From a virus, in the IMG/VR virus record IMGVR_UViG_3300031957_003439, positions 1 through 29,773 of that record: a DNA stretch of 29,773 nucleotides. The stretch is one strand, 5' to 3'. The notes below the pieces were generated by a model that was given only the letters and a program-made list of their open reading frames with translations, had not been told where the DNA came from and ran no database searches. How positions within the stretch are numbered: the stretch's first letter is position 1; each line of letters starts with the position of its first letter. The translations under genes and the position numbers were made by a program. Positions 1-17,700 of the stretch are shown in pieces.

Positions 1-63
1 GGCCTTACCTATCCCTTTGGTGTGCCCTATGATTGCTATTTTATTTTTGTTTCCTTGATTCAT
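1..63 (-). CDS. SDR-like (Rossmann-fold) protein, N-terminal fragment
   Basis: Only the first 21 codons lie in the window; the gene continues past the left edge. Reading leftward from the ATG at 63 gives MNQGNKNKIAIIGHTKGIGKA. This is a short hydrophobic beta-strand followed by a GxTxGIG-type glycine loop, the NAD(P)-binding start of short-chain dehydrogenase/reductase proteins. The start overlaps the end of the hydroxylase gene by 23 bp in another frame, so translation is probably coupled. The Shine-Dalgarno is weak (TAGTGGA, a few bases upstream). Substrate, catalytic Tyr-Lys pair and length cannot be seen. Other Rossmann-type enzymes, such as nucleotide-sugar reductases, are possible. The glycine-loop reading is direct; the SDR assignment is family knowledge from a very short piece. 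Confidence 0.6.
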   Translation of the reverse strand, partial: MNQGNKNKIAIIGHTKGIGKA

Positions 64-709
64 ACACATCCACTAGATTTTCCAACCCTTCAAAACATTC
101 CGAATAGTGTTGGTAATATTGTTCGAACTTCTCTTTAGTGTACAGTGATTCTTTGTAAAAGTCAATTAATAACGTGGTTCTCTCACCTGGATTGTTGTTG
201 AAACCATTGTGTACCTGTATGTCTGGTTGGAAAATGAACGCTTCACCTGTCTTCCAAGTCATCAATTCCTGTTTCCTAGTTTCTAGGTTCATCACGTGCA
301 TACCACTCTGGTCTCCTCCTCCGTCATCCAAACACATCTGATATCTCCAACCACCTTCGTTATCCGTGTGATTACCAATTTTTGTGTCTGGTCCAACAGT
401 CATTATTGCCACATTAGTCTTGTATGGGAATTTTCTCAGTATCGAATACAGCATGGGATAGTCATTGAACGATTGTCCCTCGTGTTCCCCTGACTGTATT
501 CCCAGTGCTTTCCACTGTCCATTCACATAGTCCCCTGACTTGTCATCGAAGTCATCCGGAAGTCCCCTTACGCTGTCTGAGAAGTCTTCTGGATCTAAGA
601 ATATCTTGTTGGGTTGTGAGTCGAACTCGTGTTTGATCTCTGTGAAATGTTTTTCTATTCTCAGGAAACATTCGCCTTGCTGTCCGTGGTAATATGATTT
701 ATCGAGCAT
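41..709 (-). CDS. 2-oxoglutarate/Fe(II) oxygenase, aspartyl/asparaginyl beta-hydroxylase-like
   Basis: A 222-residue protein whose C-terminal half has the double-stranded beta-helix signature of the aspartyl/asparaginyl beta-hydroxylase family. The iron triad is His114-x-Asp116 (motif NHTDNEGGWRYQ) with His167 (IQVHNGFNN). Arg177 (GERTTLLIDF) is placed to bind the 2-oxoglutarate carboxylate. The expected reaction is 2OG-dependent hydroxylation of an Asp/Asn side chain or a related substrate, in the infected cell's cytoplasm. The N-terminal ~90 residues are acidic and unassigned. The gene starts inside the last codons of the adhesin gene (11-bp overlap) and overlaps the SDR-like start by 23 bp, so it belongs to the fibre/adhesin transcript. 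The target is unknown: an adhesin residue, a host protein or a small molecule are all open. Proline hydroxylase-like enzymes share the fold, but the motif spacing fits the Asp/Asn family better. Confidence 0.8.
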   Translation of the reverse strand: MLDKSYYHGQQGECFLRIEKHFTEIKHEFDSQPNKIFLDPEDFSDSVRGLPDDFDDKSGDYVNGQWKALGIQSGEHEGQSFNDYPMLYSILRKFPYKTNVAIMTVGPDTKIGNHTDNEGGWRYQMCLDDGGGDQSGMHVMNLETRKQELMTWKTGEAFIFQPDIQVHNGFNNNPGERTTLLIDFYKESLYTKEKFEQYYQHYSECFEGLENLVDVYESRKQK

Positions 710-2138
710 TCAGTATATTAACATTTTTATCATGTATCTGTCTATCATGATCTTGCCAATTACTAAAAAATTGTTCACCGTGGTTGGTTAGTTCTTGCTG
801 TTCACTTAATTCGAAGTAATCTGTGAATTCTGTGTTGTTTATAATAATTCTTCTGTTTTCGCTACCGAACACGTACACTATTACTTCGTCATCACCTAGT
901 GATAATCCTAGTCTACTGTCCTCGACTCTTGTCCATGCACCATCTTCTTTGACCATGTGCGTTCCTGATACTTGGATCCCGTTGTAGTCATACAGGTTGT
1001 CTATCAAGAACTTACCTGTTGCGAACACCTTGCCACCAACTGACACTGTGTCACCTATGTCCACCTGTTCTACTGCTTTGAAAGAACCATCTGCCATCGT
1101 GATCATTGTTCCTGCTATGAAACAACCACCCCCAGGAGAAGGTCCTGATCCTCCTGATCCTGAAGTAGTGTTACCTGTAGTGTTACCAAATCCGGCCGCT
1201 GTTTCAACAATGTTGATTCCTGAGTTGAATAGTGCCTTCCATGTTCCTGATACTTTGACGTAAGCGGCCGTTATCGCCTTCCATGTTCCTGATACTTTGA
1301 CGTAAGCGGCATTTATCTTCTTCCATGTTCCTGCTACTTTAACGTTTCCCTGTACTCCTACATTGAATACAATAACTGCTTTTCCATCTGCTCCTGAGCC
1401 CGATCCAGTTCCTCCCACTGCAACTCCTGATGTGTAATTAGCTTCACCTGTTCCGCCTGGTGTAACACCCGAACCATCTGAACTCGATCCTCCTGATGGT
1501 ACTAGGTTCGATCCTGATCTACCGCCGGTACCTCCACTGTCATTAGATCCACCGTTTCCACCTGTACCGCCATCGGCTCCTCCGCCTCCAGCTCCTCCAC
1601 CACCACCGTCTCCGGAGTGGCCCGCACCGTTCTCTCCCAGTGTGCCTGGTGATCTAGCTGTTGCTGTATTTGTGGCGACTCCTGCACTTCCGTTGGAACT
1701 GTTACCCGCTCCACCGCCGCCTCCACCGCCGCCTGCTATCGCGACTGCTGTGCCATCTATGAATAATGTCGTGGCTCCTCCACCACCTCCTCCTGATCCC
1801 GAAGATCCATTTGGACCTGAAGATCCACCCTGTCCACCTGAAAAATCTGTTTTACTTTTTCCGTTTGTTCCACCTGTCGCATTTGCCCCCTGATATCCAC
1901 CTGCTCCGCCGCCACCAACTGCTACCTCAAGGGTGTCGTTGATATTGGATGTTACTGAATAACTTGTTTTTTTGACATGATGCCCGGCCGCTCCTGTGCC
2001 ACCACCACCACCTACGTCTGAACCACCGCCACCACCTGCTCCACCCCAAAGATAGATGTCTATCGATGTTGTTCCAGGTGGTATGGTTGTTTGATTTATT
2101 GTTCCTGTGTGGTTGAACGTCTTGACTACTGCTACCAT
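699..2138 (-). CDS. Glycine-rich tail adhesin with C-terminal Hint domain
   Basis: A 479-residue protein in three parts. Residues ~1-255 form a glycine-rich beta-domain: an N-terminal strand region (FNHTGTINQTTIPPGTTSI) and many GGGGG runs, as in phage glycine-rich fibre-tip adhesins. Residues ~266-307 are three 14-residue tandem repeats (VKVSGTWKAITAAY type). From Cys339 on is a Hedgehog/intein (Hint) fold: CFIAGTMITMADGS, a GDTV turn, the block-B pair Thr393-His394 (SGTHMV) and an INNTEFTDYFE end segment. Hint domains catalyse self-cleavage through the N-terminal Cys; no C-terminal intein Asn plus extein is evident, so cleavage rather than splicing is expected. The start is supported by a strong GGAGG 9 nt upstream. 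It lies 4 nt after the preceding fibre gene and overlaps the hydroxylase gene. The likely role is receptor binding at a fibre tip (inference). Confidence 0.8.
   Translation of the reverse strand: MVAVVKTFNHTGTINQTTIPPGTTSIDIYLWGGAGGGGGSDVGGGGGTGAAGHHVKKTSYSVTSNINDTLEVAVGGGGAGGYQGANATGGTNGKSKTDFSGGQGGSSGPNGSSGSGGGGGGATTLFIDGTAVAIAGGGGGGGGAGNSSNGSAGVATNTATARSPGTLGENGAGHSGDGGGGGAGGGGADGGTGGNGGSNDSGGTGGRSGSNLVPSGGSSSDGSGVTPGGTGEANYTSGVAVGGTGSGSGADGKAVIVFNVGVQGNVKVAGTWKKINAAYVKVSGTWKAITAAYVKVSGTWKALFNSGINIVETAAGFGNTTGNTTSGSGGSGPSPGGGCFIAGTMITMADGSFKAVEQVDIGDTVSVGGKVFATGKFLIDNLYDYNGIQVSGTHMVKEDGAWTRVEDSRLGLSLGDDEVIVYVFGSENRRIIINNTEFTDYFELSEQQELTNHGEQFFSNWQDHDRQIHDKNVNILNAR
708..1124 (-). other. Hint (Hedgehog/intein-type) autoprocessing domain, residues 339-477
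   Basis: The domain opens at Cys339 with CFIAGTMITMADGSFKAVEQ followed by VDIGDTVSVGG, matching block A of Hint domains. Thr393-His394 match the block-B TxxH/TH region that activates the first peptide bond. A late beta segment (RRIIINNTEFTDYFE) resembles the end of phage and bacterial Hint modules. No HN-Cys/Ser/Thr splice acceptor is seen at the C-terminus (it ends NILNAR), so N-terminal cleavage is more likely than splicing. Activity is inferred. Confidence 0.75.
1218..1343 (-). repeat. Three tandem 42-bp (14-residue) repeats in the adhesin
   Basis: Three in-frame units of exactly 42 bp encode VKVAGTWKKINAAY, VKVSGTWKAITAAY and VKVSGTWKALFNSG (residues 266-307). The first two DNA copies (around 1234-1268 and 1276-1310) share an identical 35-bp stretch on the plus strand, and the third (from 1321) has diverged slightly. 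The near-identity suggests recent unit duplication or gene conversion. The repeats sit between the glycine-rich domain and the Hint domain and may act as a spacer or trimerising stalk. Confidence 0.9.
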
Positions 2139-2142
2139 GGGA

Positions 2143-3519
2143 TTAAGCCTCCCTTACAAAATAGAAGTCTCCGTCGACGCCATCTGAATCTGAAGGATCC
2201 GTGGTTGCTACTTGCTTAAATCTGTTGACAAAAGTTACTACTTGTCCTGTAGTTGGTACGCTCACGCTTGAAGTAGATGTTATTGCTGATCCTACTGCCG
2301 CCAAATTGACATTTGTCACTGTCACCAGTCCTGCCGCTGTTGTTTTTAATACTTTTTCTTTTGATGCGTTACCGTCTACTACCGCATCTGCTAATCTTAT
2401 GACCTGTGAATATGATTGTCCGTGTCCTGCACTCCAGAAATTTTCAGACACATCATAGAACATTCTAGCATCATCTGTGTCACCAGTCTCGACTATAAGT
2501 CCTGCGTCTGCTTCCGAACCCCCTGCGTTGACTTTAAGGAAAGTGTCGGAGTGTTGTACAATGTTGGATGATGTGTAGTTGTACGCACCACTCACGTTTA
2601 AATTTCCTACTATTGTAAGATCACCAGTGATGTCTACGCCGCCATCTGCACCTGTCAATTGTAAAGGTGTTTTTGTTGTACCATTATCGTTTACTGTGAA
2701 TTTTAAGTCCTTGTCTTCTGAAGTCTGTGCTATCGTCACGTCGTTGCTTGAAACGGTCACTGTCAGTTCCTGTGCTCCACCAACTATCAATCCTGCATCT
2801 GCATCTATTGTTAATGCACCTGTTGTGGTATCTGCCACATCTGATCTCAAGAAGTTTCCACCTGCAATTACTGTGCTTGAATTATTTGATGTTCCTGATA
2901 CGAGGATCTGTGAAGCTTGTGTGCTTGTTCCATCGAACACTGCTCCCAGTGTTGAGTTTAGTGTGAATCCTGCCTTGACTGCCGCGAAACCTGTCTGTGT
3001 CACACTTGGTGTGAAATCTTCTTTTGAAAGTATAGCTACTCTTGTGTTTCCTGCGTACATGGAAGATACAACCTTGTTTCCGCCTGCACTAGCTAGTGTC
3101 TCTATCTTCCAACCTGACAGTGTCTGTCCTGCTGTGTAGACCGGTCCTACTAGTTGGAATGCTGATCCTGTATGGACGTAAAGTTGATCGTTGTCTGAAT
3201 CATGCCAAAGGTCACCCGCCGATGGTGTGGTCGGTGCTGAATTTTGTGATTTTGCACCTGCCGATGGTTTGAAACTTGTTCCATCATAAACTTTCAATTG
3301 TGCTGTTGACGTGTCAAACCATAACTCACCTTTCAAAGGTGCTGATGGTGCCGACGTCGATGCTGAATTCTCTAGCAGTTTAACAAGGTTCTCGTTCAGA
3401 CCCTCACCGAACCCAGAAAAGCTCTTTCCGAAAAGCTGTACGGAAGTGGTGTTATCTACTGTACCATCCGTGATGGTAGTGATTGCTGTCCCGTCTGTTC
3501 TGTTAATTGTGTACGCCAT
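2143..3519 (-). CDS. Tail-fibre-like virion structural protein (paralogue 1, 458 aa)
   Basis: I use the ATG at 3519 (MAYTINRTDG), not the upstream in-frame ATG at 3549. The shorter start aligns with the paralogue's MSYTVNKSNS, and the extra 10 codons would overlap the paralogue's end. Residues ~35-60 carry FGEGLNENLVKLLENSAS. Two GELWFDT/GDLWHDS modules (about 64-82 and 102-118) are typical of marine T4-like fibre proteins. A beta-rich middle (FLRSDVADTTTGALTIDADAG) aligns with the paralogue to about residue 300, then the C-termini differ: here LNVSGAYNYTSSN to GDFYFVREA, with no peptidase-like domain. No Shine-Dalgarno is visible, and an AATAAATA motif lies 8 nt upstream. It probably forms part of a side-fibre or baseplate-rim fibre. 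The exact position in the virion is unknown. Confidence 0.8.
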   Translation of the reverse strand: MAYTINRTDGTAITTITDGTVDNTTSVQLFGKSFSGFGEGLNENLVKLLENSASTSAPSAPLKGELWFDTSTAQLKVYDGTSFKPSAGAKSQNSAPTTPSAGDLWHDSDNDQLYVHTGSAFQLVGPVYTAGQTLSGWKIETLASAGGNKVVSSMYAGNTRVAILSKEDFTPSVTQTGFAAVKAGFTLNSTLGAVFDGTSTQASQILVSGTSNNSSTVIAGGNFLRSDVADTTTGALTIDADAGLIVGGAQELTVTVSSNDVTIAQTSEDKDLKFTVNDNGTTKTPLQLTGADGGVDITGDLTIVGNLNVSGAYNYTSSNIVQHSDTFLKVNAGGSEADAGLIVETGDTDDARMFYDVSENFWSAGHGQSYSQVIRLADAVVDGNASKEKVLKTTAAGLVTVTNVNLAAVGSAITSTSSVSVPTTGQVVTFVNRFKQVATTDPSDSDGVDGDFYFVREA

Positions 3520-3526
3520 TTGCTTG

Positions 3527-3534
3527 TATTTATT
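3527..3534 (-). promoter_or_regulatory. Late-promoter-like motif AATAAATA upstream of fibre paralogue 1
   Basis: The minus strand reads AATAAATA over the stop codon of the preceding gene, 8 nt before the ATG at 3519. It matches the T4 late -10 element TATAAATA at seven of eight positions. Initiation about 6 nt downstream would give an almost leaderless mRNA. The matching layout at 5774-5781 supports function, but either could be chance in AT-rich spacer. Confidence 0.45.
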
Positions 3535-5038
3535 GTCTTCCGGCCACAATATTAATTGTGCCTATTTCTGTTGAATTGTATTCTTCCAGTGCTTTTCCTA
3601 TCACTGTGCCCATTGCAGGGTTAGTTCCTGTCCTAGCAACACCTGGATGTTGCGAATGTGTGACCAACATGTCTCCCTTACTGATCTGTCCAACAACTTT
3701 ACATGGTACCTTTCCTTGTAATGCTACCGGTTGTCCTGAAGCGTCTGCATTCATTAAGTATGCTGGATTTCCTGAGATGACCCCTGCCACTTTTGGATCA
3801 CTGCCCATGCTTGAAACTGTGATCTCTTTCTCGCCACCAAATACAACAACTGTTCCCACTTCGTACTCCGAGTCAGATTCGTATATCTCGGCCAAGTCAG
3901 CGTATTGTGCCGATGTTGCCTTGGCATGAACTGTGTTGTAACCAAGAGAGCTACTTCCTATGTCATATGTGTCACCATTGTCTGGTAGTATTGCTTTTGT
4001 TATTAGTGTTCCTGATAGTGTTGTTGCACCCAGACTGCTGGCACCTGACCCTGCGATGTTTCCTGTCACGTTTCCTGTGACTGCACCGGTCAGTGGTCCT
4101 ACGAATGCTGTCGCTGTCGCTGTTCCTGCCACTTGTAATGTCGAGCTCGGTGTGGTAGTTCCGATACCCACTCTTGATGCTGATCCGTCCAACGTCATTA
4201 ACGTGGTCGTTACACCTCCGTCGTTCATTTTGAATGTTATGTCTGTGTCTACTATCACATTTGAAACAATTACCCCTGTGGAGTCCACTGTTATTGATAG
4301 GTCACTGTCAGCACCCACAGTCATACCAGAGTCTGTAACTATACCTAGCGTTCCGGCAGTTGTGTCGTTGGCATTGGATCTCAAGTACGATGCCGCTGAC
4401 ACTCCACCCAGTGCGTCTGAATCCGTGGCCGTTCCTGCAAATTTTGTACCCGATATCGCCGTGGTCAGTGTTATACCTTTCTTGATCGTTGCAAATCCTG
4501 AGAGAGTGGCCTTTGGGGTGAACTCGTCTTCCGATATTATTGCAATAAGGTTACCGTCATTGAACCACTTGGTTATGTTCTGTGATACATCCGATGAATC
4601 AACTATTACATCGTACGTGAATCCGTTTGTGGTACCTGTTGAACTTGGTGGTCCTACAAGTATCGAAGTTGTTCCATTGTAGTAGTACATCTGTCCTGTG
4701 TCTGAGTCTATCCATATATCTCCCTGTGCAGGGGCCGTGGGTTCCGTTGATTGGTACGGGACGTTTCCGCCCGACGGTACGAATACTGTTCCTGAATATA
4801 CCTTTAGCCTGCTTGTTGCAGTGTCATACCAAAGTTGTCCCTGTACGGGTTTAGTAGGTGCTGTCGTGTTTGCGAAGTTCTCCATCAGGTGTAGGAAGTT
4901 CTCTGCGATCACCTCTCCGTAACCTGCATAACCTTTACCTATGAACGAAAGATCAGTCTGGGTGTTCACAACACCATCCTGCACCGTGTACTGGTTTGGT
5001 GATGCTGAGCTGTTTGACTTGTTTACAGTGTACGACAT
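3530..5038 (-). CDS. Tail-fibre-like structural protein with C-terminal G2-type autoproteolytic-like domain (paralogue 2, 502 aa)
   Basis: A paralogue of the 458-residue protein downstream. It has the same N-terminal MSYTVN start, a GYGEVIAENFLHLMENFA helix (~40-57), two GQLWYDT/GDIWIDS modules (~67-82 and 106-121) and a beta-rich middle (YLRSNANDTTAGTLGI). The C-terminal ~123 residues (380-502) are different: ADLAEIYESDSEYEVGTVVV, VAGVISGNPAYLMN, VPCKVVGQISKGDMLV and GKALEEYN. This pattern is widespread at the ends of marine phage fibres and resembles the Peptidase_G2/IMC autoproteolytic family. It may assist trimer folding or cleavage; I cannot see a proven active site. AGGA lies 9 nt before the ATG, within the previous gene's last codons. 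It is probably a fibre subunit. Confidence 0.8.
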   Translation of the reverse strand: MSYTVNKSNSSASPNQYTVQDGVVNTQTDLSFIGKGYAGYGEVIAENFLHLMENFANTTAPTKPVQGQLWYDTATSRLKVYSGTVFVPSGGNVPYQSTEPTAPAQGDIWIDSDTGQMYYYNGTTSILVGPPSSTGTTNGFTYDVIVDSSDVSQNITKWFNDGNLIAIISEDEFTPKATLSGFATIKKGITLTTAISGTKFAGTATDSDALGGVSAASYLRSNANDTTAGTLGIVTDSGMTVGADSDLSITVDSTGVIVSNVIVDTDITFKMNDGGVTTTLMTLDGSASRVGIGTTTPSSTLQVAGTATATAFVGPLTGAVTGNVTGNIAGSGASSLGATTLSGTLITKAILPDNGDTYDIGSSSLGYNTVHAKATSAQYADLAEIYESDSEYEVGTVVVFGGEKEITVSSMGSDPKVAGVISGNPAYLMNADASGQPVALQGKVPCKVVGQISKGDMLVTHSQHPGVARTGTNPAMGTVIGKALEEYNSTEIGTINIVAGRQ

Positions 5039-5773: not shown

Positions 5774-5781
5774 TATTTATT
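5774..5781 (-). promoter_or_regulatory. Late-promoter-like motif AATAAATA upstream of the 241-aa structural gene
   Basis: AATAAATA on the minus strand overlaps the last codons and stop of the giant gene and ends 7 nt before the ATG at 5767. It is one base from the T4 late consensus TATAAATA. A start about 6 nt downstream would place +1 at or next to the ATG. It could give the four distal fibre genes their own late transcript after a 13-kb gene. Confidence 0.45.
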
Positions 5782-8700
5782 CAGGTGAGTTTGTTGGCTC
5801 GTTAGCTATGAATTTAGCTTGTTGAGTGGTTGAAGCTTGTAAGCCCTTACCGTCACTAGGATTACTGCCTAATGTTGTATACCAAACCTGTCCTTTCTTG
5901 TGTAAGATTTTAACCTGTGTGCCGTCAGCTGGAACAGTGCTTAAAGTCACTGTCGCAGTAGATCCGTCCACAGAATAGTTAATAGTTGATCCGTCCTCGC
6001 TAGTGAGCAACAATCGTTGGCCACCAATGAATATGTCTAACTCACTAGCAGAAGCCGGTATCTGTGATAGTGCAAACGCAACAGTACTGCCATCACCTGT
6101 GAAGGTATTGGTGTACACTGTGTCCGCATAAGGGATGGTTTGAGTTCCTGACGCATCTACCACTTCTGCGCCTGAACCATGATCCTTAATTCCTGTACCA
6201 AGCGTACCTCTTTTCAACTGTCCTAAAATATTTCCAGTTTTAGTGAAGTACTCTATTCTCTCCTTGTCTATGAAGATCACACCCGGCATGTTGTTTGATG
6301 CAACAGGTGTTGGTAAAATTGTTCCGTCGTCGACTGTGATCGTCTGCGATCCTTCTACTATGTCGTTTATTACCTGTGTCGTTGACGTTTTGCTGATACG
6401 CTTGTAGAAAGTCCTATTAAGCATATCTTTGAATATCCTAAATCCTGTGCCACCAATCGCTGTATCAAGTGCGAAGTACATCACATCTAGTCTGTCTGAC
6501 GATGTTATTGTCTTGTTCACTACTGTGATCACGTTGCCGCTCAGTGTGTAGTCATAACCTTGTGTCAGTTGTACTCCATTCAACCAGACATAAGTGTACG
6601 TGGCGTTCAGTGGAGTAAATCTCAAATGGAACGTGTTGCTTGATTGTCCTTCCAGCACTTCTCTTCTTAGTTTCATTCCAAGTGCGTTGTTGAATGTTGT
6701 CACTGATATCACATCGTTAGTGGACAGTGGCTGGCCATTTGATGCCAACTGTGTTTGGTTTAATATTATGTCTGACCCTACGTTGTAGTAATGGTAATCC
6801 GCCAATGTTGTTATAGCAACTACGTCCGTGCTTGCCGGGGCGGTGATAAAATTCACCCTGTCCGGTGATCCTGCCGAGTCCGTGGTCGTCGTAGTTGTGT
6901 CAGTCGTTGTTGACGATACATCTGTCGTGTGTACTCCATTTCCTAGATCTACTGTGTAGTGGGTGTTCAGTATCTGCTCTACTCCGTTCACGTGTATCTG
7001 TATCTGCGAAGTACTCGTGATGACCTTGACTGGATCTATCGTTGAATCTTCTCCCAGAGGTAGATCCTCTTCTATGTCCGTTGTGGTTGCAGTTGTGTCC
7101 GCTGAATTTGTTGTTGTGTCTGCCGTTACTTGTAGGCTTCCTAGGCCTGACAATGGATTGAAATCAAATCCAACAGTCGTTCCGTCTCCCATGTAGTAAC
7201 TAACATCTGGTCCTCTCAGTACTTTTCCGTTTGCCTCGACGATTGTCAAACCTGATAGTGGACCTATCGATCCAGGTGGATAAGTTAGAGTGTATCTGTC
7301 TGTGCTACCATCATATGTGATCGCTTGGTTCCTGATGCTCGCAAAACTTCTTGTCGAGCTGGATGACTTGTTGAAGCCAGCTATCTGAATGAATGAATTT
7401 GCTGTCGGTGCCGTGTTGAATGTCACCGTGATCGTGTTCGCAGTTGTCGTGGTCGAGAAAGCTGTTGTAGGTACACCATCTACTGTTATGTACATGTCAG
7501 ACACAGTTGAATCTAAATTAAATTCACCCCTCGTCGATGTAGTGAACGTGACTGTGCTTCCGTCTCCTGTGTATTGATCCAGCACCCTGTAATTCTCTCC
7601 GCTTATTGCAAAAACTTTTGTTGACACGACCGAATACTCTGCAGGTGCAGTACCAAATGTGATTGTTTTATTAGCGACATCGATTGTGTAGTCCGTTGTC
7701 AATTTTTTAACCACACCGTTCACTGAAACTGTTACTGATCCCAGTGTTCCTGGATAATCACCGATGCTGAATGTTGTCGTGGAACCTTCGACTCTGTGAT
7801 TCTTCTCAGATATAAATGGTACTCCCGATTCTGGAGATGTGTAAACTTTTATGTCCAGTGTGTCAAAAAGCTGTCCTGGCACTGTCTCTTCCGGTGCATA
7901 ACTGGTGTCTGGTGATATGAAATCATCACCTTCCATTATGATGTCGCTCGGTGCGTGTCCTAGTGCTGACCTGAATAATCCGCCCTGTACTATGGAGTCG
8001 AGTGTCCTGTCATCTGTTGGGGTCAACACACCATCGTCATCGAACGGTATGAACTCAACTAGTACACCTGCGTCAGGTATAGCAGATAAAGTAAATGCTG
8101 TTGTTGTTCCATCACCTCTGAATATATCGTTTAATTTTTGCCTCGAGCTGTCACCAGCAGTTATGTAGACCTGGTACACATCACTAGTGGCCGGTGCTGG
8201 GGTGATAGTGAATGTTGCTGTCAGTCCATCGGCACTGAAGGCTTTTATCCTAGATTCACCATAAGTGTCCCAAGGGAAATTATACCAACCTTCCTTGTCC
8301 CATCCTTGTCCCTGTGAGTATAATAAACCTGTGACCATTGTTCCACCGTAGTCAACTCCTGACATCACTTGTGAAAGTTCATTGCCTGCCATTCCCGATC
8401 CTGGTGTGTAGAAACCTTTGGTCCTGTCCGCGGCCGTTAGTCCTGTTTCATCACCGTACACTTTGTACACATCGCCGATGTTGTCATCGAACACTGTGGT
8501 TGCTGTGAAGGCATTTGTTACCTTGTAAAGTTGGTTTTTATATCTAAGTAGATCATTGTACGCATAGCTGGTCAATGCCGTCCAATCGACCACTCTCGAT
8601 GTGCTAGAAACCCTATCAAATTTTATTGTTGTGTTTATGTCCCTAACAAGATCGTTGCTAAGGTTCGTGTATGCTCTAGCAGTGTCAGACGGTGTTGATC

Positions 8701-11700
8701 CATCAGATGCACCTCCGGTCAATACCACCATAGGTGTTGAAGTGTAGTTTGCACCAGCACTTGTTACAGTTATTTTTGTCACTGTACCACTAACAACCGT
8801 TGCCGTGGCAGTCGCCGCAGTAGTGGCCGGTGTTGTGTACATCTTGTATGCACCGGATATTGTTGACTGTGCATGATTAGAAATTTGACTGTCTGGCATG
8901 TAGAACGTTCCTGCGTACCCATCAAATGTGTGAGAGTGTGATGTACCAGATCCGCCATTTTGCGAGTCCCAGATGTTAGATTGTTCAAGACTACTGAACA
9001 ATGGATAGTAGTAACCGTAACTGCCTGAAGACGCTCCACTCGAACTTGTTGCCAGTATCTGGAAAGGTCCTGTGGAACCTACTGTTCCTCCCACTATCGT
9101 GACTGTCGGGGCTGTGGTGTAGCCGGATCCACCTTTGCTGACTGTTATAGATGAAACGTGTTTCTTGTGGTAGTCATTCCACATCTGCCAAGGATATTGA
9201 GTAAGTTTATCAGTGTCGGAATCAACATTCAAAGATCTGATCTTGCCTGTCGTCGCATCATAGAATGTTGGACTGTCGAAGTCGGTGAACAGGCCGTCCT
9301 GTGTCTCTGCACCTGTGTGTCCCAATCTGTATTCTCTTAATGTTGTGTGGAAGGGTTTCACTTCATTGATGTAGCTCTCTATCCAACTGTCTGTGCCTGA
9401 TGTGTATGTCTTCCTCTGGTCCAGTGGTCTGACGGAGTTCTTGGCGTTGATGAATGATGTCTTAAACATCCAGTCAACATAGATCTGTTCTGAAAGTACC
9501 TTGCTCAATCCTATGAAGAACAGTGTGTTGTACTCGATCGCCAGTGCATTTATGAATATATCATCTCGCAGTGCCGTTAAAATATTTCTAGTCTCTATGG
9601 AAGGTTCTTGGTCAAAGAAGTTGTCATCAAAGTTGTCATCACCTGCAAATCCTGTGGCATCCTGTGAGTAGTCATAAAGTTTGGTCGATAGCCTGATCGT
9701 CCCGTTCTCTGTTCCCACGTTTGTGTAACCTGTCGCAGTCTTCATGAACAGTTTCCATCCACCTGTGTCTGCACTAGTAACTTTGACATGCTTACCTACT
9801 GCAAGAGACAGTGTGTCTAGTTCGTATTCGTAGGTTACCTGTTTGTCAATTTTTGTATTTTCACCATGGAGCATTCCATGTACATCAGGATCTGTGCCGT
9901 ACCAGTCTGTGTAACTCCAATACGATGATGTGTTGTAAGTTTGTATCTTTGTTCTAGTGAATTCTGTGCCGTCCCATGTGTATATCGCCCAGTATCCGTT
10001 GGCTGTTTCATCTGCTTTGACAAGGTATCTCACTGTTCCTGACAGATCCCTTGTGTCTATGTAAGTCAATTCCGCGTATGTGTCTATTGACTGATCCCAT
10101 TCTAGGCTCTGTACTGTGGGTTCTGGTTCTTTGGCATCAAGGTTGGTTAGGTTTATCTGACCAACCAACTGATTTTTCTTCAACACAGTGTTCGTGTAAT
10201 CTATTATCTCTTTCAAAGCATTAAATCTGTCCACGTACCAACCCTGTCTCGGTCTCGTGCTGTTTCCGTATCTCTCGTTCACAGGGAGGTCTGGATCTGG
10301 CACTAGGTCTCCTGATGTGTTCTTGCCTGCTAGTGAATCCCACCAACGTGACTCTATCCGTGCTCCTGGTCTGTAGTCCTTGTCACCTTCCCTGGCCAAC
10401 TTCCAAACAGAGTGTGCATCTGCTTCAAAATTATTGGTCCTGACGTCAACGTTTAGTGTTATTTCGTCATCGATAAGGTTGTTGACATTGTTTATAATAA
10501 ACTTGGATGTGTCAGTCACTGAGTAATACTTGAAACCATACCTTTCAGGATTCGCTATCAGGTTTGCCACGTATGCTGTTGTGTTCTTCCGCACTACCAC
10601 ACTGTTGGATGGTATTGTTGCTTTGTTCTTAACCCAATAGTAATAGTAGTTGACGAATGAATCTAGTCTGGAGTTGTATCTCGGTATCACTGTGTACTGC
10701 GTATCGTCACCGTTCAGTGCTGTGCCTGTTATCCTTTCCGTCGTGCCCTGTTGTGTAGCGGATCTGGTGTTCCATTGACTAGGTAGTAATGTTGATTCCG
10801 TCCATTCATATACGTCTATGCTGGATCCCGGGAAGAGTTGACCCCAGTGGTTTGTTTTGAATTCTTGTTCTCCTTGTTCGTACCATGTCCACTTGACTGT
10901 TGACAGATCCCACCATACCTCCCCTATGTGCTTCTCTGCCCAGTGTGTTTTACCGTCGGCGTTTGTTCCAAAATTGTAGGTCGCAGGATCCCAGGTGGTC
11001 TTGATGTTGATCTCTCTGTCGGCTACTCCTAGTATCCTTCCTTTTACAGGATCGTAGAGTTCGTAGTAGTCTCTGATCTGTTTGGTGCTGTTGTTGAATT
11101 CGAAAACTTGTCCCATTTTATCTATGTCGATCAATGCATCTTCCGTCACTATGTTGTCCCATGCGTACTTGCCGTTCACTGTTAGATCATAAATGTTGAC
11201 AGTTCCGTCATTCGAGATCTTAGAACTTCCGTCACTGGTGTCCGTGTTCCCGTCGTCATTGGGGGATCCTACAAGAACAGTGTTGTCTATCATGCATACA
11301 CCTCTCCCAAAGTCATCATTCTCTGACACGCTGACTGATACCAGGCTGTCGTCTATCACAAATTTGGTGTTGTACATCGTGGCCGTGTATGCACCACCTG
11401 ATCCCGTGTTCGGATCAACCACCCTGGTGTCCTGTAGATCAAACGTGGTCCTGCCGGAGTCAAATTTTATCTCCCTGACATTTGCAAAGTTTTCAGCACC
11501 TATAACCAGCCTCGTTCCTGAATCGTTTATGTCCAAGCTAGTTCCAAATTTCATGTTGCTCTGTGTGTCCGGAGCACTTAAGGTCTGTTGTAGTGTGTAT
11601 GTGTTCGTCGAACCATCTGCATTCCACTTGTAGTAGTATATCGCACCAGCGTCTGGTTGTTCTGTGCCGTCCACCCCAGGAGCTCCTATGATCAGTGTTG

Positions 11701-14700
11701 TTCCGTCCTTGCTCATTGCTATAGATTCTCCAAAAGCCGTGTTCACGGTCGAACCATCCGACGCAACACCTGTCAGTGTCTGTGCCAGTGCGAATGAATT
11801 CTGTGAACTCCCATCGTTGCTCTGTGAAGTCTTGACGAATATTTCCACCTTGCCTGCGTTGCCTGGTGCTAACGAACTGACTGCCAGTATGTCACCGTTG
11901 TCGTTGGCTTGTATCCTGTGTCCGAATCTTTGTCCGCTACCGCCATCCGGTGCTTCTATGGTGTAATCCTGTGTCCACGTGGAATATGTTGATCCATCTG
12001 CACCGATACCCCAGGTGTACATGTACACCCTGCCCGTGTCGCTGTCATGTCCAGGTGCTGAAACAAACAGGTATTTCTGTGCCGTGCTTCTCAATGAACT
12101 TACTGTTGGTTCTGAAATCTTGTGGGTCCAACCGAAATTTAGATTTTCGTTGGCGCTCGAGCCATCTGTTGGCGGTGTGACTGTTTCCAGTAGTCCATAC
12201 TTGAATGTCGTTGGATCCCAAACATAGATCTTTATTAATCCCGAGTTCAGTTGCCTAGTACTGCCGTCTAATCCGATCGTGTTGGTGTATGGCGCTCCCG
12301 CTACCACAAAGTTCTCATCCGTGCTCATAGACAACGATTCTCCCAATCTACTGGTGTTGTCGTCGTTGTCCGTCATTGTGCCTACTGATTGCGACTGTAA
12401 CAGTGTCCCTGCCTCCGACGAGACCCTGAAAAGGAAATTAATTTCTCCCTGTCCCTTGCCTGGAGCTGAAACAATAACTGCCCTGCCGTCATTCCTTGCC
12501 ACTATCCTGTGACCGAACTCCTGGTCTACCGTTTCACTGTCCGGTGATAGTACTAGTGCTGTTGTGTATGGATCTTGTTTCTCGTACACACGCCACAGTC
12601 CTGAGCTGTCAGCGTCAGCGAATACCTTGTCTCCTTCCTTTGCTATGGCTTCGTCCTTGTCATTGTAGTCGGCGTGGTTGAGCAGGTCATTCACGTTGTC
12701 CATCGAGGCCAACCTCACCGATATGAACTTGTAGATATTGCCGTAACTGTCTGCCGTTGATCCATCTGCTAGTGCCGGTATGAATCCTGTGTTGCCTGCG
12801 TAATCTATTATCACAGTCCTGTGGTCTGGTGTGCTGTCCACTCTGTACACTCCGTTGAGTGTTACTTCCTCACTGTTCGATATGCCAAAGTAGTCGGCCT
12901 GTGTGCTAGTGGAGCCTGCTGACAGGCCATGTGAACCCGTGAATGTTATCTCCAACTGCGTGACGTCATTTATTGGTGTCAGTGAAGCTATCCTGTATCC
13001 AGCTGATGTCAATCTAAAAACGTCCCAATCCCTGTTGCTCTTGTTGGCCACCCATACCAGATCATTGGACGTTATGGCGTTCATGTCTAGGTTCACCAGA
13101 TCGACAATGTTAAATGCCGTGTGCTGTACCTGGTTCAATTGTGGATATCCTGCTGTCTTGAAAACTTGTGCGACATCTCTGTCCACTCCTTCTTGTGAAT
13201 AGTCCAACCTACTGAATGTTGTTGCGGCCGTGTAGTCTACCGGCCTACGATATAGATCCGTTTTCGCTATGTAGTTGGATCTTGAGTATTCCAATGTGCC
13301 ATTTGACGTATCAAACAGTTCTATACTCTGTGGGTCTGCAGTGATCTTATTAGCCTCCAGTGTAATCTGTATGTTCTCTACGGAATCCGTGTTGCCTAGT
13401 GTCCCTGACCTGATCATCCATTCTGGATACAGGTCCAGTGTTATGTCCTCTCCCTCGTACTTGGCTTTAAGCAGTCTGTCTACGGCGTTCTGTGTTCCCT
13501 TCTCCCTGATGTAGCCCTGGTAGAATTTGTATTGTGAGACATCGTTGACGAAAAGATTTTCCAAGTAATCCCTTGACTGGTAACCTATCAGTCTCTGTGC
13601 CAACTGTTGCTGTGACTCATCGAAGTTGTTAGACTCCAGTTCGTAGAAATCATTGAACTGTGATATCTTGTAGTCGAAGTTTGGAATAAGTTGTGGTGCA
13701 GGTTTCTCTGCTTTTAAAATCCAGCTGGCACTGTCAAATTTTGTTGCCGAGTTGTGATTGACTTTTGCAACATAGAACTTGCCTTGAAACTCTATTGAGT
13801 CGCCTACGTTGTAGTCTGTGTTGGCCGTCCAGTAAGTTACCTGTGCCGCATCAAAGACGAATCCTGGTGCATAGTAATCCCCATTCCATCCTGCTGTTTT
13901 GAAGCCAACTAGTTTGAGTCTCTGCTGTCTGAATCCTGTGAATGGATCATATATGATGTCCGCGAACACTGTGCTGTTGTCAAACAACAGGATGTGTTCC
14001 TTCTGTACGGTGTTCAGTGCTATGTTGTACAGGCCGGTGTCCTGTGATTTAATGCCTAGTTCGAATGTCTTGCCTATCCTCTTGGTGGATATATCCCGGA
14101 TGTCGATCTTCCTGCCTCCTGCATCAAGCAGTGAATAATCTCCTGCAAGGTTCCTTAATCTGCCAACAACTGAATTGTTGGTGTCCAACTCAAACCCATC
14201 AGCGGCCGGTGAGACCGTGACGGCCGAACCCGGTGCCCATTCCTGCGTGGTCCAGAACAGGAACTCCCTGACTGCGTTCGACCAGTTGAGCGTTTCCTTC
14301 AATTCGTTTGAGTACTTGTTGAACTTGAATCCTTGGTCTTCCAGCCAGTGTCCGTATCCAAAAAGGAAATCCGTGACATCCTGTATCGTTGTGAACACGT
14401 GACCATAGGGTATTGTCTGTGTGTCTTCCTGGTAGTAGTTGTATCGTGATACTGGTGTTGCTCCTGCTACAGAAACCGCTGATTGTGTCGTTGTCTTGAC
14501 AGGATAATTAAATTTGAAATATGGCTTTGTTGTCGAATAGCCTAGGACCTTGTAGCCTCCCAACAGGCTGGATCCGTCCTGTCCGGTGTCAGTGTTCTTC
14601 TCTATCAACACACCAGAGTAGGTGAAACTCTCAACGGGGTTTGATGTCCTGAACAATATCTTGTAGTTCTCATCCGGTATGAATTTAGATCCTGTCGTCG

Positions 14701-17700
14701 ACCCCGGAGATACAGAATCTGTCAACACTTTCAAATTATCCTTGTCTGTGAATCCTCCCAGCTTGTATGCCATCTGCACTGTCAGGTTCTTCATCTTGTT
14801 GTAATAGAATGCTGTGGTATCCACATTTCTAGATATCAAGTAGTTGACGACAAAGTTCTGATAGCCTGCTGTCTGATATCTCGTGGTTACACCTGTGCTG
14901 TTGTCTGTGATCGTCTCCAGATGGTACTTGGCCGTTGCAAGAGTGTTCCTTATTCCCGTTTCTGAATATATTTGGTTTCCCGCCGTGTTTGTTGATAACC
15001 TGGAAAGATCAAAATAGTTAGAGAAGAATTTAGCCGGTTTTGTAAGTGCCAGTGTCTTCATCACAGTGAAAGGATACGCACTGGATTTACGCCATGCCGT
15101 CTCCGCTGGTGCTTGGTCACCAAACTTCCATGTGGCCTGTCTTCCCGGTAGGTCAAGATTGCCTACAAGTCCTGCCGCAATTGGATCTAGAAGATTGCCC
15201 GACGCATCCACTGGTAGGTAATCCAGTATCTGTGGTTTACTGTGCTGTCCCGTTGCTGTCGCTACCGCATTCCAAAGAACCGTGTTACCTGACGTGTACG
15301 GTGCCGCACCATAAGTGCTTTCCCAATCTGTTGGCTTCTCCGAATGGCCCAACATCTCCCATGGTCTGACGTGCGGGGCATCTGTGTCGTAAAAATAATG
15401 ATATATCGCTCTCCAGTGGCCTGGCAGTTTCTCGCTTGGTGTTATCCTGTTGGTTGAGAGGGCATAATTGTAAGTGAACGGCGATCCTTCGACAAATTGT
15501 GTGTTGTTGATGTACTGCACATTGTTTCTGCCTGCCCATACATAGAAGTCCGTGCCCATTACCTCGTTGAGCTCTGTTAGTGTGTACTCCGTTGATGAGA
15601 ATGCTGTCGGTTTTACATCGTGTATATCCAACAGTGTGCTGTCGTACGTGATTTTGCAGTTGTTGTAAATTCTTTTTTCTAGTTCTAAAATTAAATCATC
15701 TCTCTCATCACCATATGCCTTGATGAACGATCCGTCGTGTCTCCTGATCATTGTCTGGCTAGTGAGGTAGGTGTCGTCAATGAACGACTCCGGTTTAAAT
15801 CTCGGATACATTCCAAGTTTAGTCGGAGATGGTGGCATGTAACTGCCTGTTGTGTCTGCGTAATCTTTGATCACCACCTTGTCACCTTCTGCAAGTGTGG
15901 CTGATATCTCTACGCTGTCATCTACTGTGCTGAACGTGTAGTCTGTTCCTGATAGTAATTGTGCACCATTCAGATAAACATAAACTGCTCTGTTGCTTGT
16001 GGTTGTTGTGTTGTGTTGCGAATCAAGTGCGTATTCTGTCTGTGACTCTCCCTGTACTGTGTAAGATCTGGTTGAAACATTTTCACCCCATCCTATCATG
16101 TCTTCATAGAAAAATGGGAAAGAAGAGTTCCTGCCCTCTGTTATCGATGAGATAATTTCATCTACCCTGTCAGCGGCAACACCCTCGTATGCTGTCCCTG
16201 TTGCGTGTGTAAGGAATGCATGGTACCATTTTTCATATTCTTGGCTGGCATACTCAATCGCAGAAATAAAATTAGAATCTTGATCTATCAGCCCAAATAT
16301 CGCCGGCAACAGAGGACCCTCGTGTTGGTGTATGCTACCGCCTGTTAGTCTGGCGTCTGGTTTGTCCCTTAGATTAGATGTGCCCGGTACTGATCCTGTT
16401 ATGTCCTGGTTCTTGTCAAATATGTCAACAACATGTTTCATTATCTGTCCATAGGTGTATGTCCCCGACTGTTGGTTTAAACTGTTCGTGGCCAAGCTGT
16501 CAGGTATCTCATATATGCCTTTGCCAACAACCTTGTCGGCACTGCTGTGGCCTGCTAACCTGATCCGATCGTCCACCGATAGTTCTTTGTTGAATCTCAC
16601 ATATTTGTTTGTTGTTCCATTAACAACAGTGTAATCCGTTGTCAGTGTCTTCCTGGATCCATTCACGGAAACTGAAAGTTCCAGATCTGTTATTGCAGAA
16701 GAATTCTTGTAGAAGTCAATGGGGAACAACTGTTTCTCTGTATCATCTGCCACAAACGTTCGTACCACCCTCTGTCTGCTCTCGTTCGTCCTCTTTATCC
16801 AGGCGCTCTTGGAGTTGTGTGTGGTACGGCCCGTGGTGTAGTGAAGGTGCCCTATCGCTAGGGTTTCGGTGACAGTTTTGGTTCCATCCTTGTATGTGAA
16901 TGTTCCCGAAGTATGATCTGATTCAAAAACAATGTCGCCAACATTGTTTATGGTGTTGTATTTTACTTTTATGCCCAGTACCGTGTCTGTTGTTGCTGTG
17001 TCTGACGTTGCAAAGGCAAACACCTTGGCCCCCGCAAATGACGAGTTGGGATATGTTGTTGTATCATCAAAACTTATATGCTTGTTGTCCCACATGCCAA
17101 ACAACGGTTGTTGGTTGACCCCTGTCTTCTGCTGTGCTTCTATCCAGGCAGTGGTTGCACTGTCGTAATAGAAAGTCTTGCCCTGGTTCGCTGTCCCGAA
17201 TTCTACGAATACGCTGTCCTTGTCTGCCGGCACTCCGTCTGCTTCCTCGGTCAGTGAGATGACCTGTGTGCTGTCACCTGCTGTCGCAAAGCTGACTTTG
17301 TAAATCTTGTTCTTTACTATGGGATCCGTGTCTGCCGCGAATATGACCCTCATTCCTTCTGTTAGTGCAATGCCGTCAACTATATAACCTGTCTGTAGTA
17401 CCACATCACTGAAGGCATCCGTTGTCACCGTGTCATACAGTGTGACAGATGTTTTTGCAACCGTTCCGTGATTGTACAAAGCAAGTCCAGAATCAAATTC
17501 TATTATGGGTCTCTTGGCCCTGGAGTCCTCATCGAGTGTTGGTGTATAGCCGTTGATCCTGGCCGTCTCGTCTATGATGGATCTGTGGAACCATCTGTTG
17601 TACCTAGACCATGCATTCTGATCACGTGAATCTCTTTTTATCGTTATGTAATCTTTTGTGTCTGGCCTGTAGTATGCTTTTGCATAAGGCCTCGAGTCAT

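Follow-up and report, generated by a model that had tools for sequence, protein, structure and literature searches.

What does a Hint domain do at the very end of a phage adhesin, when the residues that inteins use for splicing are no longer in place? The question is raised by an open reading frame (ORF) in the viral record IMGVR_UViG_3300031957_003439, analyzed at its full length of 29,773 bases (hereafter the window), whose source is an uncultured phage, probably marine. An earlier note had described this ORF, at 699–2138, as a glycine-rich adhesin ending in a Hint domain; the ORF is real and lies on the minus strand, and its Hint identity is settled by the structural match given below. Beyond that description, we found the module as a cassette on unrelated phage proteins, with a strict partner gene for a GNAT-like (acetyltransferase-like) enzyme. 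The adhesin-Hint gene is divided as follows.

699–2138, minus strand: adhesin-Hint ORF with ATG start, 479 amino acids, glycine-rich and adhesin-like with a C-terminal Hint module
1125–2138, minus strand: N-terminal part, residues 1–338, with Gly_rich_2, repeats and a Gly-rich linker ending in PSPGGG
814–1124, minus strand: Hint core, Cys339 to FTDY (Tyr441 being +1), from AlphaFold2 with Foldseek/VIA and from conservation
1119–1127, minus strand: predicted scissile junction Gly338-Cys339-Phe340, from alignment with intein residue 1 and Hedgehog residue 258
957–968, minus strand: block-B motif Ser391-Gly-Thr-His394, from PDB profile alignment and conservation
702–813, minus strand: C-terminal tail, residues 442–478, predicted as a single long helix, from the AlphaFold2 model and dN/dS (ratio of nonsynonymous to synonymous change)

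The adhesin part matches Gly_rich_2 (PF21722) above its cut-off at residues 12–122 (E 1.5e-6) and carries three copies of a K-V-(A/S)-G-T-W-K repeat at residues of about 265–304, while the last 141 residues of the ORF start with CFIAGTMITMADG. Sequence evidence that these last residues form a Hint domain is weak, because Pfam Hint models match only the start of the domain and below their cut-offs (Hom_end_hint, E 7e-4); structure settles the identity. The module was modelled by AlphaFold2 from an alignment of 67 diverse modules with a mean predicted local distance difference test score (pLDDT) of 87.9, superseding a poor first model (11 near-identical homologues, pLDDT 61) whose listed PDB matches were, despite its quality, all Hint or intein. 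All 50 listed Foldseek/VIA matches of the second model are likewise Hint or intein domains (Z 13.5–10). The top match is 6y75 (VIA Z 13.5, 111 residues, root-mean-square deviation 2.1), a ciliate BIL2 domain (BIL, bacterial intein-like) with a C-terminal Asn and about 24% sequence identity to the module; others are the Clostridium BIL 2lwy (Z 12.8) and Hedgehog 1at0 (Z 11.2). The far end of the tail helix after Tyr441 is modelled with low confidence. The disc-shaped all-beta fold of the model, together with Cys1 and the block-B His, confirms membership in the Hint superfamily.

Which parts of the Hint reaction this module could still perform can be read from its conserved residues. Queries against a viral collection were the whole protein, an alignment of the Hint part and a divergent alignment, and one of these scans gave about 236 related stretches; residues were counted in 114 unique modules, and Cys1 later in 129, including divergent modules found solely via the neighboring gene. 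Cys339, which is Cys5 of the model, aligns structurally to intein residue 1 and Hedgehog 258, and Cys1-Phe2 is kept in 129/129 unique modules, a count from search patterns free of this Cys, but with a confirmation query that began at it. Loss of the catalytic Cys in close homologues, the check set by the earlier note, was thus not seen. The block-B His394 is kept in 114/114, as are Phe2, Tyr422, Arg429 and Phe-Thr-Asp, and the residue at −1 is mostly Gly (Gly 116, Ser 6, Arg 4, Leu 2, Lys 1; 129 modules). The note had numbered these residues correctly, and its intact Cys339 and His394 stand; its Thr393, however, is the second x of the TxxH motif and varies (S65/T44/E4/D1). The position of the catalytic Thr is Ser391 (Ser 108, Ala 6), and Ser there has a precedent, since a PDB profile search aligned this block to LSANH of the NEQ068 intein.

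The opposite end of the domain has changed. Class 1 inteins end in His-Asn, rarely in Gln or Asp (Asp being a known rare variant), and are followed by Cys, Ser or Thr at +1. In the structure alignment, Asp440 (model residue 106) falls on the terminal intein residue (Mtu RecA 440, PI-SceI 454), so His-Asn is replaced by Thr439-Asp440 and +1 is Tyr441 (Tyr 113/114, Phe 1/114), which bears out the earlier claim that a splice acceptor is missing. The penultimate His of class 1 inteins is therefore Thr here and the +1 residue is none of Cys, Ser or Thr; Thr-Asp also stands where a type A BIL has His-Asn without a +1 nucleophile. Type B BILs have a core without block G similarity, and in the module Thr-Asp followed by Tyr occupies the place of block G. 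Because of this replacement, splicing by the module is very unlikely on both sequence and model, while thioester chemistry at Gly338-Cys339 is plausible: the residues kept (Cys1, a small −1 residue, the block-B His) are those of the first intein step, and those lost (His-Asn, +1) are those of splicing. That the module is nonetheless a true intein or a trans-splicing half, as its intein fold might suggest, we regard as highly improbable, as the Thr-Asp/Tyr ending is invariant or nearly so, the C-extein would be just the tail of 37–48 residues, and no contig has more than one gene bearing the module, a 196 kb contig included. A trans-acting partner Hint was rejected as well, with a single module-bearing gene in 17/17 contigs (the 196 kb contig among them), two of which have a tandem pair inside that gene.

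Is such a module still in use, or is it the remnant of an intein? In 29 window-type genes, compared by Nei-Gojobori-type dN/dS on mean proportions, the proportion of synonymous differences (pS) was alike in all parts of the gene (0.52–0.62), and dN/dS fell from about 0.22 for the adhesin part to about 0.08 for the Hint core and 0.05 for the tail; solely the contrast between parts is firm, because the estimate is near saturation. Purifying selection on the module is strong, stricter than on the adhesin, and the module is therefore in use, not decaying. A decaying relic or selfish remnant would explain why there is neither an endonuclease nor a splice motif. Against it stand the stricter constraint on core and tail at a pS of about 0.6 and the linkage to partner genes described below, and this already disfavored explanation has, in our judgment, very little chance of being correct.

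The module is also mobile between proteins, and forms the C-terminal end of its protein in every case. Its carriers are unrelated: the Gly-rich adhesin, DUF4815 proteins (loci L061 and L102), small Gly-zipper proteins that weakly match tape-measure proteins (L129) and low-complexity proteins. Across these carriers, a Gly-rich linker or Gly run mostly precedes the Cys. In nine loci read out, a second Hint ending VHN-K-G directly precedes the module (L061 5180–6079, L110, L128, L119–L121, L124, L127, L171). In related phages, what follows this linker at the adhesin locus is a helical module instead of Hint (L260, L262, L263), a different Hint (…VYNLMLETGESHYANGVKVNN) flanked by the Gly linker and a C-terminal domain of helical type (L266 2945–5089), or nothing (L264, L265, L267, L268). 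These variants indicate that the module is exchangeable. The helical module (CSIICTKL... or RVICTWL...) is borne by orthologous adhesins (L260 3944–5407, L263 3944–5461, L262 3941–5344), and a stretch related to it is a separate gene near L116 4998.

What does not vary is the company the module keeps. In the window, two genes come after the Hint gene.

41–709, minus strand: PF05118 Asp/Asn beta-hydroxylase family gene, overlapping the stop of the Hint gene, from Pfam and synteny
1–69, minus strand: start of a short-chain dehydrogenase (SDR) gene, translation MCMNQGNKNKIAIIGHTKGIGKA, cut by the contig end

The hydroxylase matches PF05118 with E 8.7e-11 (42.4 bits vs. a cut-off of 22.6) and has HxD (NHTD) in its sequence. 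Across 168 loci, the gene after the Hint gene overlaps or closely follows it and belongs to just two families: a roughly 145-residue, phrog_17252-like protein (96/168) or the window-type PF05118 hydroxylase (72/168). A reverse scan from the former family revealed that window-type phages have it too, behind the hydroxylase and the SDR; the sequence of the window breaks off within the first part of the SDR gene. In L047 the order is adhesin-Hint, hydroxylase, SDR, GNAT-like, fibre, with SDR to GNAT-like at 11053–12091 and the SDR (11062–11634) matching PF00106 with 31.1 bits (cut-off 26.6). The linkage holds in both directions: the phrog_17252-like gene lies downstream in 132/132 loci with unique module DNA and enough sequence (131 scored positive plus L091, where the protein is visibly encoded), and the reverse scan found the module upstream in 73 of 76 new loci, the other three being cut by contig ends. 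We label this partner GNAT-like rather than GNAT because most members match nothing. About 20 partner proteins were scanned, one of which passed PF00583 narrowly (L241, 21.6 vs. 20.7 bits, residues 31–119) and 13 others had no Pfam match, and a PDB profile search with the partner found no GNAT; the label follows that match and our own reading of the sequence pattern. Separately, a divergent DUF4815-like group (L238, L239, L240) has CRRGCRR/CFLAGT junctions and two hydroxylase genes 5' of the GNAT-like gene.

We consider residues 339–479 most likely to be an intein-like C-terminal maturation module resembling type B BILs, and hold this reading with somewhat better than even confidence. In the proposed mechanism, the adhesin would fold first, after which Cys339, aided by His394, would attack the Gly338 carbonyl. 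Water or a small nucleophile would then open the adhesin thioester so formed, which would leave an adhesin of 30.4 kDa with Gly338 as its last residue and a freed 15.9 kDa Hint-helix (computed masses). The GNAT-like enzyme, with the hydroxylase and dehydrogenase in the window group, would modify the same protein or its acceptor, and the partner enzyme perhaps docks on the helical tail prior to release. Self-cleavage, its product and any adduct are thus predictions from sequence and fold.

The strict link to enzyme genes favors something more than hydrolysis, and it is here that a Hedgehog-like conjugation enters. The Gly338 thioester would then be handed to a specific acceptor, which could be a lipid, an amine, a glycan or a different virion protein, with the enzymes making or presenting that acceptor, or with the GNAT-like enzyme taking the protein thioester instead of acyl-CoA. 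The Gly-Cys-Phe junction with its C-terminal extension, the Hedgehog Hint among the structural matches, and an enzyme linkage that plain hydrolysis would not need all fit. Yet no acceptor is known, in a Gram-negative host one would have to be present in the cytoplasm, where assembly takes place, GNAT-like relatives occur without an adjacent Hint, and the tail is a short helix differing between groups, unlike one shared adduct-binding region, which disfavors a single common acceptor site; conjugation is accordingly a possible but rather unlikely alternative. More speculatively still, the module and its neighbors might form a two-part conjugation system for virion proteins, in which the Hint module makes the thioester and the obligate GNAT-like partner (joined in T4-like phages by hydroxylase and dehydrogenase) transfers that acyl group or a modified acceptor to yield a covalent C-terminal adduct. 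If so, phages would possess their own equivalent of Hedgehog lipidation, in the form of a cassette that can be swapped.

The same linkage would suit a module that does not cut at all in the virion life cycle and provides the partner enzyme with a docking or assembly domain, the Cys and His of the module being kept for metal binding, as a regulatory thiol or the like. The low dN/dS of the highly conserved window-group tail and the tandem second Hint agree with such a role; the invariant set does not, as it corresponds to what inteins use in the N-terminal half of their reaction, and we think docking doubtful as the explanation. Nor is the tail itself a convincing hydroxylase substrate, as HDRQ occurs in most tails of hydroxylase-linked adhesins and is absent from hydroxylase-linked DUF4815-like proteins.

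Several observations weigh against the maturation reading that we prefer. The block-F Asp of inteins assists the N-terminal reactions, and its position in the module is apparently Val, Thr or Ile (V423, by our reading of the alignment). The TxxH Thr is replaced by Ser or Ala, and in Hedgehog the T326A change strongly reduced activity (PMC9163320), though NEQ068 has Ser. In tandem Hint-Hint proteins, the second module would seem superfluous for simple trimming, and the place of the adhesin in the virion is deduced from gene context. Finally, distant GNAT-like relatives in Flavobacterium, Cellulophaga, Maribacter and Tenacibaculum phages had no Hint in the genes inspected, so that a Hint-only role for the GNAT-like enzyme was rejected. 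These relatives follow or adjoin virion genes, and the enzyme may therefore act on virion proteins in general. In L251 (4995–5402) and related loci of isolated Flavobacteriia phages, the GNAT-like gene stands beside large virion structural proteins.

The wider neighborhood in the window is a T4-like baseplate and fibre operon, with PHROG family matches to a gp25-like wedge, a lysozyme-type hub and other baseplate genes. Within it, one ORF of 4350 residues spans 5777–18829 (minus strand), and a mutually related pair of fibre-like proteins (2143–3549, with an Mtd_N domain, and 3530–5038; minus strand) belongs to a family with several copies per genome. Downstream of the fibres in L047 (15304–20083), several glycosyltransferase-like genes and one gene with a radical-SAM-like CxxxCxxC, recognized by eye, possibly serve glycan modification.

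Where the module came from was approached through its relatives. Among 50,697 phage records, tblastn with several versions of the module, the tandem first Hint and the hydroxylase gave weak intein starts only and no close relative, and 84,980 genomes yielded one related contig, in a Verrucomicrobia metagenome-assembled genome. This contig is probably phage because its adhesin-hydroxylase order is the same, and a bacterial origin of the module was rejected on that account. The psbA family had no match in 10 large contigs, which rules out a typical photosynthesis-carrying cyanophage. A Hint cap with an enzyme-gene cassette was not described in the open-access literature searched, nor found in phage isolates.

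Phage Hint domains are mostly reported as inteins within enzymes (terminase, nucleotide metabolism). Here, the domain appears to have been domesticated as a swappable C-terminal cap, selected harder than the adhesin that bears it and tied to an enzyme gene without observed exception. While the fold and predicted chemistry belong to a known kind, a Hint cap that can be exchanged at the C-terminus of phage proteins, together with its apparently obligate enzyme gene, appears to be new. The arrangement points to an unrecognized route by which the proteins of phage particles may be cut or chemically modified, and opens a direct question: are phage attachment proteins trimmed or chemically modified via thioester chemistry? 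It would also add a Hint lineage with, by prediction, N-terminal chemistry alone and a possible use for protein ligation.

Among known systems, the S74, K1F and T5 pb1 fibre chaperones (PMC10579305, PMC7824862) similarly place a C-terminal module, here possibly removed after folding as well, on a virion appendage protein; they differ in fold and chemistry, the S74 domain being Ser-based where Hint uses Cys. Class 1 mini-inteins (NEQ068, gp41-1) share the fold, Cys1 and the block-B His, with SxxH as in NEQ068, whereas the phage module has the Thr-Asp/Tyr end and is appended to protein ends rather than inserted in a conserved essential protein. In Hedgehog, an N-S acyl shift at Gly-Cys comes first and an external nucleophile then attacks (PMC9163320), and its Hog part resembles the module in this junction, in the order of N-terminal effector, Hint and C-terminal extension, and in not splicing; unlike this animal system, with its Hint and sterol recognition region, the phage module has Ser or Ala for the TxxH Thr (the His being kept), no sterol-binding part that could be recognized, and a short helix as its tail. 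Type B BILs (Amitai 2003, reviewed in PMC4031507) cleave without splicing, and a Magnetospirillum BIL likewise has Tyr at +1 (PMC4031507). Judged by features, the likeness extends to the Hint fold, the N-terminal Cys, the block-B His and the missing block G and +1 nucleophile, while its position at the extreme C-terminus, its helical tail and its fixed downstream GNAT-like gene set the phage module apart.
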